From a bacterium (lineage in GTDB: Bacteria > Acidobacteriota > Polarisedimenticolia > Polarisedimenticolales > Polarisedimenticolaceae), in the NCBI GenBank assembly GCA_024226515.1, contig JAAELQ010000263.1, positions 1 to 64,000 on the forward strand: DNA of 64,000 bases. Direction: 5' to 3'. The notes beneath the pieces were generated by a model. It was not told where the DNA came from. It searched no databases and saw nothing but the letters and a program-made list of their open reading frames with translations. The position numbers and the translations under genes are program-made. This document shows positions 3,728 to 64,000 of this stretch, in pieces; positions within the stretch are counted from its first letter, which is position 1; each line of letters opens with the position of its first letter.

Positions 3728-3745
3728 CGTGAACAGACGTTCACG
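3728..3745. promoter_or_regulatory. Perfect palindrome with a GAAC-N4-GTTC core
   Basis: CGTGAAC and GTTCACG form a 7-bp inverted repeat separated by AGAC, in the divergent region between the acidic secreted protein and the small peptide gene. GAAC-N4-GTTC is the core of the LexA box in actinobacteria and Firmicutes. Whether LexA of this lineage recognises it is unknown, so it is best described as an operator-like palindrome about 120 bp upstream of both start codons. Confidence 0.4.
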
Positions 3746-3806: not shown

Positions 3807-3822
3807 TGGCACGCACCTGGCA
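3807..3822 (+). promoter_or_regulatory. Sigma-54 (-24/-12) promoter for the small peptide gene
   Basis: The sequence is TGGCAC-GCACC-TGGCA. The consensus is TGGCAC-N5-TTGCA/T, so only one position of the -12 element differs, and the essential GG-N10-GC spacing is exact. Transcription would start near 3833, leaving a ~32-nt leader that contains the AGGGAGGT ribosome binding site at 3851-3858. Confidence 0.5.
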
Positions 3823-3864
3823 ATGTATGATCGCGGAAGATCACGCAAAGAGGGAGGTACGGAC

Positions 3865-4047
3865 ATGACGCGCAAACTGAACGACGACGAATTGGACAAA
3901 GTCGACGGAGCCGGAGACGACCGGCCGATGTACCGCGACGTTTCTCCGTCCGATCAGGAAGATCTCAAGCCGGACCCGGGCGCGCCGATCGAGCGCCGTC
4001 CCTCACGGGACCTCGACGGCGAAGAGAACATCGGACGCTGGGAGTAG
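3865..4047 (+). CDS. 60-aa peptide with a RiPP/GG-type leader motif
   Basis: The ATG at 3865 is preceded by AGGGAGGT at an ideal distance. The peptide begins MTRKLNDDELDKVDGAGDD. The LxDDELxxVxGxG pattern matches leader peptides of ribosomally synthesised modified peptides and bacteriocins (the L-S-D-E-E-L-x-x-V-x-G-G type), which are cut after the double-Gly-like site by peptidase-containing ABC exporters. The remaining ~43 residues are hydrophilic, rich in Asp, Pro and Arg, and have no Cys and few Ser, so this is not an obvious lanthipeptide core. No modifying enzyme or exporter is encoded nearby. The gene is convergent with the lipoprotein gene at 4051, with only 3 nt between stop codons. 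It could also be an unrelated small acidic protein. Confidence 0.6.
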   Translation: MTRKLNDDELDKVDGAGDDRPMYRDVSPSDQEDLKPDPGAPIERRPSRDLDGEENIGRWE

Positions 4048-4050
4048 CGG

Positions 4051-4578
4051 CTAGCGACAATCCCGGGTGTTCGATGTGTCGTCGAAGACCACGGTCTTGT
4101 CCGTCCGCGCGAGTGTTATCGCCGTGACCGGGGCGCTGAGCGACAGGGTCACCATGCAGCCGGACCCCGGCGCCGTCGAGGTCACGCGGACGTGCAGACT
4201 CGTCTCGTCCTCGACGATCGAGTCGACTCGAATCGAGTGGCCGCCTGTCGGCCGCGATCCCAGCTCGGCCGCGATCACCATCCGCTGATCGAAGTCGATC
4301 CGCGGCGATTCCGGCGGTGGGAACAGCGTCGCGTTCAACGAGTCGTAGTAGTCGTTCCACTCGGTCTCGTCGCGGATGACCAGCCGCTGCGCGTCGAAGC
4401 CGCCGAACACGTCACCCTGGCGAACCTCCGTGATCACCTCGAACTCGACGTCGGTCGTCGTCTCGAAGGCGTCGGTCCCCGGAGACAGTGTCTGTGACGG
4501 CGCGGTGCACGCGGTGGTCCACAGGAGCAGAAGCGCGGCGACGGAGATTCCGATTCGGCCCGGCATGGAGCTACGCAT
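4051..4578 (-). CDS. PrcB-domain-like lipoprotein
   Basis: 175 residues. The ATG at 4576-4578 is preferred because AGGAGG ends 6 nt upstream; a GTG one codon earlier is too close. The N-terminus is a lipoprotein signal (AALLLLWTTACTAP, lipid-accepting Cys after TTA). The C-terminal ~110 residues carry VIRDETEWNDYYDS, DFDQRMVIAAELGSRPTGG and HSIRVDSI. This order (ExxW, DFxxxMVxAxxxGxxPTGG, SIxIxxI) is what I know from the PrcB C-terminal domain, named after a Treponema protease-complex subunit. It would sit at the outer or inner membrane facing the periplasm. A likely -10 (TATGAT) lies just upstream. Confidence 0.6.
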   Translation of the reverse strand: MRSSMPGRIGISVAALLLLWTTACTAPSQTLSPGTDAFETTTDVEFEVITEVRQGDVFGGFDAQRLVIRDETEWNDYYDSLNATLFPPPESPRIDFDQRMVIAAELGSRPTGGHSIRVDSIVEDETSLHVRVTSTAPGSGCMVTLSLSAPVTAITLARTDKTVVFDDTSNTRDCR

Positions 4579-4602
4579 CACTCACCTCCTCGTTCTGTCG
4601 AC

Positions 4603-62457: not shown

Positions 62458-64000
62458 ATGGATCACTCGAGGAAGGTCCTGTCCACGCAGACCGTGATCG
62501 GTTTGCTGGCGGTCCTGCTGATCGCGGTGCTCGCAGCGCCGTCCGCGCTCGCGACCACGGAGCGCGTTGCGCTGAAGGACCTGGATGAACAGCTTGCCGC
62601 GTCGCTGCAGGCTCCGCTGCGGGCCAAACTGGCCGAGATCAGCGGCCAGAAGAACGACGAGGGCATCAAGAACGTCCGCGGTTCGTACTCGCGGTTGCTG
62701 TCCAAGGTCAGCGACGAGAAGTACGAGGTTTCGTTCCTCGAGCGCCGCGCCGACCCGGACACGCTCGTGGCGACCCGAATGGCGCTGACTCTCGAGCCGG
62801 ACCCGGCGAAGAAGGAAAGCTGGAAGATCACCAACGAGGAGGTCGTCGAGACGTACGACGACATGCATCGTGCCCTCGGTCTCACCTGCTACGACTTCGA
62901 CAAGTTCGACTTCGACCGCGAGGGCTTGAAGGTCACCGGCTCGAACGGCTCGGTGTGCGAGTACTACCGGCAGGGTACGGTGATGGGCTTCGCGCTGATC
63001 ACCGACGACCTGAAGTACGACTATACCGCGCCCAAGTATCTCGACTTCTACACGTTGCAGCAGATGAACGAGAGCGATTGGCCGGAGTACGTGGATTTCG
63101 ATCCGAAGTTCATTGAAATGTACTGCGATGCCGACACCTGCGAAGAGCTGCTCGACGAGCTCTTCACCGGGCTCGATCGCATCCCTGCCGACCAGCGTAA
63201 GGCGGAGATCAAGGGCAGAACGGACTCGCTGCCCGCCGCCGCGAAGACGTGGATGGACAAGCAGGTCCAGAAGATGGTGGACCGCCGGAAGGAGAGCCCG
63301 TTCGCCGACTTCGGCCCCGACACCCCCCCCGGCAACCGCAATTACGTCGTCGCCGTCAACAAGAACGACAAGGAAGCGGTCGGGCTGCGCTACAACAACT
63401 GGGGCGGCTTCGAGCTGACGTTCTGGGCTCGGATCAACGATCCGGCCTTCGGCATCCAGAGCGCCAACCTGTACGGTTACTACACCGAGGAGACCACGAA
63501 GACTACGCCGCCCTACGAGCTGGAGGCGCGCCCGGATCTCGGCAACCGCTGGTACGACCTGTACAAGGTGACCGGCGAGGTCGAGGTCGCGCTGAACGAC
63601 CCGGAGATGATCTCCGGCGACGTGGAGTACGGCGTCAACATTCGGCAGGACATCGACGTCCTCCCGTTCTTCGTGGCCACCAAGCCGCGTGAGAACGTCA
63701 AGCGCCCTTCGCTGTTCCTCAACTCGGTCGAGTACGAGGGCAAGGATCTGACCTGGGTGCAGGTCAACCCCTACGGCGGGTACATCGTCTTTCCCGAGGT
63801 GATTCCCGGCGGTACCAAGATCGACCTGCGTATCGTCTTCTCCTCGCGCGCGCTGCACAAGGTGAACCACGCGTTCACGCGCACGCCGCGCGGCTCGTGG
63901 CTGCCGCTGGTGCGCTTCGGTGACTTCATCGAAGAGTTCGACATGGTCTACAAGAGCCCGTCGAAGTACACGCTGCTCGGCATCGGCAAGAAGGTGCACG
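62458..64000 (+). CDS. Unrecognised secreted protein, 3' end missing
   Basis: 514 codons are visible and the frame is open to the window edge. GGAGGGAG stands before the ATG. A signal peptide (VIGLLAVLLIAVLAAPSALA) is followed by a helical start (LDEQLAASLQAPLRAKLAEI) and a mixed region with NNWGGFELTFWARINDPAFG, NLYGYYTEETTKT and VNPYGGYIVFPEVIPGGTKI. Two close Cys pairs (TCYDFDKF...VCEYY; YCDADTCEEL) suggest disulfides. I recognise no catalytic motif in this part; the domains that define the family may lie beyond the window. It is separated from the fad operon by a 152-bp spacer with its own -10-like hexamer. Confidence 0.7.
   Translation, partial: MDHSRKVLSTQTVIGLLAVLLIAVLAAPSALATTERVALKDLDEQLAASLQAPLRAKLAEISGQKNDEGIKNVRGSYSRLLSKVSDEKYEVSFLERRADPDTLVATRMALTLEPDPAKKESWKITNEEVVETYDDMHRALGLTCYDFDKFDFDREGLKVTGSNGSVCEYYRQGTVMGFALITDDLKYDYTAPKYLDFYTLQQMNESDWPEYVDFDPKFIEMYCDADTCEELLDELFTGLDRIPADQRKAEIKGRTDSLPAAAKTWMDKQVQKMVDRRKESPFADFGPDTPPGNRNYVVAVNKNDKEAVGLRYNNWGGFELTFWARINDPAFGIQSANLYGYYTEETTKTTPPYELEARPDLGNRWYDLYKVTGEVEVALNDPEMISGDVEYGVNIRQDIDVLPFFVATKPRENVKRPSLFLNSVEYEGKDLTWVQVNPYGGYIVFPEVIPGGTKIDLRIVFSSRALHKVNHAFTRTPRGSWLPLVRFGDFIEEFDMVYKSPSKYTLLGIGKKVH

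Follow-up and report, generated by a model that had tools for sequence, protein, structure and literature searches.

We found that a 60-codon gene in the stretch of DNA analyzed (64,000 nucleotides, hereafter the window) is one of 11 paralogues that probably form a dispersed, co-regulated family of double-glycine-type precursors, cleaved in the case of the window peptide after Ala16 and exported in trans as secreted peptides. This reading is based at the sequence level on the family itself, its leader residues, a sigma-54-type promoter with an inverted repeat, the presence of RpoN, and an exporter with intact catalytic residues. The window corresponds to contig C262 of a 6.5-Mb draft genome (320 contigs, ~97% complete).

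The window gene encodes a peptide with a double-glycine-type leader

The precursor peptide gene (3865-4047, forward strand) consists of 60 codons plus stop, starts with the ATG at 3865, and encodes MTRKLNDDELDKVDGAGDDRPMYRDVSPSDQEDLKPDPGAPIERRPSRDLDGEENIGRWE. Its frame stays open in the 5' direction as far as position 3823, and the ribosome binding site GGGAGG is located at 3852-3857 of the same strand; comparable sites are present upstream of all 11 family members. The GC content at codon positions 1, 2, and 3 (0.72, 0.41, and 0.77, respectively) is like that of genuine genes of this genome, which, along with the existence of paralogues, rules out a spurious open reading frame.

The first 16 residues (3865-3912, forward strand; MTRKLNDDELDKVDGA) form a double-glycine-type leader with Leu at -12, Glu at -8, Leu at -7, Val at -4, Gly at -2, and Ala at -1, corresponding to L5, E9, L10, V13, G15, and A16 of the peptide. 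Leu-12, Glu-8, Leu-7, and Val-4 have been described as recognition residues in a consensus with GG, GA, or GS that is read by C39 exporters, Gly-Ala being among the cleavage motifs (PMC6363468). The predicted exported core (3913-4044, forward strand) contains 44 residues, has a pI of 4.4, lacks Cys, and is predicted to be disordered. The AlphaFold model of the peptide alone (mean pLDDT of 62, pTM of 0.15) is informative only as to likely disorder, and Pfam and NCBIfam searches with the precursor peptides returned no family above the cut-off.

The gene, leader, ribosome binding site, and -24/-12 site were all located where an earlier note on this DNA had placed them. The note had also stated that the gene has no neighbors for export or modification, and we found none adjoining it; the adjacent genes encode a lipoprotein with a PrcB_C domain and a protein with the metallo-beta-lactamase fold. 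The former (4051-4581, reverse strand) is lipoprotein-like, contains the PrcB_C domain (Pfam E value of 9.5e-13), and is convergent with the precursor gene.

The family comprises 11 genes at six loci

The description of the gene as an orphan in the earlier note turned out to be incorrect. By searching its own genome with the window peptide and then with growing alignments, we retrieved ten paralogues: three tandem genes on C115 (39357-40383, reverse strand), four genes on C227 (30252-31617, reverse strand), and single genes on C87 (59727), C8 (31477), and C254 (L103:1480), the last of which was found only through its leader. Weak matches at C214, C149, and C231 were rejected because their sequences resemble internal parts of coding regions unrelated to the family.

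As the note had proposed for homologues, the leader is conserved among these paralogues and the core is more variable. The leaders contain 15 to 19 residues, with Leu at -12 (Met once), Asp/Glu at -8 (Ile once), and Leu at -7 (Met once), and all members have Val/Ile at -4, Gly at -2, and Ala at -1. Each recognition position is thus matched in at least 10 of the 11 members, in support of the leader type initially suggested. The absence of Cys, noted before for the window core, extends to all 11 cores, which are 38 to 63 residues long, contain few Ser/Thr, and are very hydrophilic (GRAVY from -0.7 to -1.8). Their pI is between 4.1 and 4.4 in 8 of 11 cases; the remaining three, all from C115, are close to neutral.

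A scan of 1.35 Mb of the genome for small open reading frames with a ribosome binding site and a double-glycine leader retrieved the family members and one TPR fragment, and nothing else. Similarly, a leader pattern search of this genome, with limited recall, returned family members and matches inside long open reading frames but no other candidate substrate of the exporter. The leader shared by ten paralogues, the promoter pattern at family genes, and the outcome of the 1.35-Mb scan place the observation made in the window beyond chance. When 10 members were compared with the model TIGR01847 (bacteriocin-type signal sequence), one matched with an E value of 0.2 and none exceeded the cut-off, and none matched TIGR03793 (NHLP) or TIGR03798 (Nif11). 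Since an NHLP or Nif11 leader domain is absent, the window precursor is of neither type.

Sigma-54-type promoters and an inverted repeat precede four loci

The -24/-12 promoter of the window gene (TGGCACGCACCTGGCA; 3807-3822, forward strand) reads TGGCACG-N4-TGGCA and has a predicted transcription start at ~3833. Its near-consensus character was confirmed, with one mismatch and exact spacing with respect to TGGCACG-N4-TTGC(A/T), the consensus used for sigma-54 sites (PMC7910581). It contains GG at -24 and GC at -12, and RpoN is encoded in the genome; regulation by sigma-54 itself is a prediction. The exact pattern TGGCACG-N4-TGGCW occurs five times in the 6.5-Mb genome, as does its reversed control, and three of these five sites are found at family genes, namely, 58 to 74 nucleotides upstream of the window gene and of two C115 genes. 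The C115 copies are duplicates, and their promoters are therefore not independent. The C254 gene has a sigma-54-like site (CGGCACGCCGTGTGCA) at -65, whereas at C227 there is a weak site (TGGTATG...GTGCA), ~200 nucleotides away from the first peptide gene. The -12 element at the family sites is TGGC or GTGC, compared to TTGC in the consensus. Neither a sigma-54-like promoter nor the repeat described below was found at the C87 and C8 copies. A further exact site (L046, C115:335108-335123) is located ~56 nucleotides upstream of a gene for a protein that begins with MKPMKRLLVVLLMLATAAAPALA; this start is signal-peptide-like, the protein is likely secreted, and the site has no GTGAAC repeat.

An inverted repeat that had escaped the earlier note, GTGAACAGACGTTCAC, is present at 3729-3744 and is proposed to be the site of an activator (enhancer-binding protein). 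Repeats of the form RTGAAC-N4..6-GTTCAY are also present 5' of C115, C227, and C254 members, so that each of the four loci (of six) with a sigma-54-like site has an RTGAAC-N4/6-GTTCAY repeat upstream. This repeat looks like an activator site. It occurs nine times in 1.35 Mb of the genome, with four copies at family loci; the same 1.35 Mb contains 23 relaxed sigma-54 sites. Pairs of repeat and site in the right order and at most 250 bp apart occurred four times, in all four cases 5' of family genes; from those counts ~0.04 pairs would be expected by chance, a figure to be read with the repeat having first been noticed in these very regions. In a blind scan for shared repeats, the RTGAAC repeat, discovered initially by eye, ranked first and was equaled in 7 of 300 random draws.

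Several additional repeats were observed. At the C227 cluster, GTGAACCGCAGTTCAT and TGGTATGTAGCGTGCA (L041:9900 and 9836) are situated ~200 to 300 nucleotides before the first peptide gene, and a small frame between them and this gene (MAENQRQEVARLRDEELDPTRRAWAGR) may represent a leader peptide that has decayed or is of another kind. A GTGAAC-N5-GTTCAC repeat is present at 63862-63878 of the window with no sigma-54 site near it; N5 copies occur five times in the 1.35 Mb, all distant from the peptide family. The combination of sigma-54 site and repeat was not found upstream of three genes of the exporter operon.

On this basis, RNA polymerase with RpoN, together with a single activator bound to the upstream GTGAAC inverted repeat, would switch on four of the six loci, covering 9 of the 11 genes when the downstream members of clusters are counted.

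A single peptidase-containing exporter is encoded elsewhere in the genome

The genome-wide check for peptidase-ABC exporters suggested in the note revealed one, on a different contig: Peptidase_C39 was detected in a single protein of the whole genome, encoded on C229. The products of this intact operon score above the curated cut-offs of TIGR03896, TIGR03794, TIGR03796, and TIGR03797, which define an NHLP-type export system. The best match of the peptidase domain to a solved structure was LahT (6MPZ, E value of 3.7e-44). Residues Q17, C23, H96, and D112 align with Q21, C27, H101, and D117 of LahT, whose roles are documented (PMC6363468), and the catalytic residues are intact. The window precursor is thus of the double-glycine/PCAT type with respect to both leader and exporter. 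We infer that the C229 exporter is cognate to the family leaders; since the precursors are unlinked to it, this pairing depends on the uniqueness of the exporter and the fit of the motif. The leader would adopt a short helical form and dock into the C39 peptidase domain, which would cut after Gly15-Ala16. The exporter operon (L043:1701-8054) adjoins genes for two proteins identified by reading, apparently a TPR-containing Ser/Thr kinase and a protein of FHA-GAF-cyclase type; these and the TIGR03896 cyclic-nucleotide-binding protein encoded at the operon suggest that export is regulated.

That the family consists of small acidic cytoplasmic proteins with a coincidental resemblance to leaders would agree with the lack of linkage to any exporter and with the unrelated housekeeping or surface genes that neighbor several copies. 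However, the positions read by C39 peptidases are kept in all 11 members while the remainder diverges, and among the genomes sampled this is the only one of its class with a full NHLP exporter, so that we consider a cytoplasmic role highly improbable.

The earlier note had also envisaged a new class of precursor acting in trans with distant enzymes. The part concerning a distant partner is likely to apply to export, but modification enzymes are unlinked at most loci, which, together with the absence of an NHLP/Nif11 leader domain, argues against a classical RiPP cluster. Candidates for modification of the cores in trans before export do exist: NHLP exporters often carry modified peptides (PMC2887384), a B12-binding radical-SAM gene, weakly similar to the RiPP enzyme ApyD, precedes the C87 gene by 75 bp, and the search for RRE-bearing enzymes retrieved three PqqD/RRE-like proteins. 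The latter are encoded on C304, C238, and C316, contigs that carry none of the precursors, and the best NCBIfam matches of the radical-SAM protein are hopanoid-type enzymes, far below the cut-off. Furthermore, no modification enzyme was present among the neighbors sampled at the window, C115, C227, and C8, and the cores offer no Cys and few Ser/Thr. RiPP precursors are hence an unlikely interpretation. The radical-SAM gene (L009:8204-9652) has a DUF4070 tail and, lying directly 5' of the C87 precursor, is possibly co-transcribed with it.

The family appears to be lineage specific

No convincing family member was detected in 80 relatives, among which the genus was not otherwise represented, or in 396 genomes spread over the phylum. 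Matches in relatives with E values of 0.002 to 5 were dismissed, since they were mostly to long frames and outside the leader. Two GTDB contig scans likewise returned no relatives, although very near records may be missing from these scans. At present sampling the precursor family therefore looks lineage specific, its leader occurring in this genome only among the 80 relatives. Exporters above the TIGR03796 cut-off (full NHLP) were found in 3 of the 80, this genome included. One relative, G059, contains three full NHLP-type exporters (L090, L091, and L092) with GG-leader precursors near two of them; LTEQELDAVAGG is NHLP-like and LTDTQLEALSGG Nif11-like, labels that come from reading the sequences and not from model matches.

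Proposed role of the peptides

The 44-residue acidic, flexible core would leave the cell as a linear, probably unmodified peptide and act outside it, most likely in signaling or competition. Alternatively, the peptides could be class II microcin-type antibacterials, i.e., unmodified double-glycine peptides that kill competitors. Leader and exporter are of the types found in class II microcins (PMC9746304), and there are several divergent copies in this one genome, but no evident immunity gene adjoins the family copies, and very hydrophilic cores with a pI mostly of 4.1 to 4.4, predicted to be disordered in the window peptide, do not point to membrane-active peptides. We thus regard an antibacterial function as rather unlikely. 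The hydrophilic, likely disordered cores and the absence of an evident immunity gene favor, with low confidence, a signal-like role, toward which we lean, or another extracellular one; a function in the matrix is a further candidate. It is conceivable, as a tentative extension, that the family constitutes a dedicated sigma-54- and activator-controlled signaling regulon, in which lineage-specific, unmodified, mostly acidic and disordered peptides, each behind a minimal leader of the Gly-Ala type, are encoded at scattered loci and served in trans by one NHLP-type transporter.

NHLP-type exporters are usually taken to mark clusters for modified peptides. The likely substrates of the exporter studied here are scattered, linear, and Cys-free, and genome mining based on clusters would overlook such peptides; a search combining promoter and leader does recover scattered precursors. 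Because the sigma-54-type site and the repeat are shared, both co-regulation and a cognate activator are accessible to direct testing.

Comparison with known systems

The family shares with NHLP/Nif11 systems (Haft 2010, PMC2887384) the exporter family (TIGR03794/03796/03797), paralogous precursors of which some are distant from export genes, a Gly-Gly-type cleavage motif, and variable cores. It differs in its leaders of only 15 to 19 residues, which have a Gly-Ala motif and no nitrile-hydratase or Nif11 domain, in its Cys-free cores, and in the sigma-54-type promoter with inverted repeat. A short GG/GA leader, a PCAT with a Cys-His-Asp triad, and a membrane fusion protein are features in common with class II microcins (PMC9746304), from which the family is set apart by the lack of a visible immunity gene, the unlinked exporter, the hydrophilic and mostly acidic cores, and the 11 copies at six loci. 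Sites like TGGCACG-N4-TTGC(A/T) and an upstream activator repeat are also known from sigma-54 natural product genes of Myxococcus (PMC7910581); that set comprises polyketide and non-ribosomal peptide genes, whereas the genes described here encode ribosomal peptide precursors and have a GTGAAC repeat. What is new is the association of a minimal Gly-Ala leader with an NHLP-type exporter, dispersed loci, and an architecture of sigma-54-type site and repeat.
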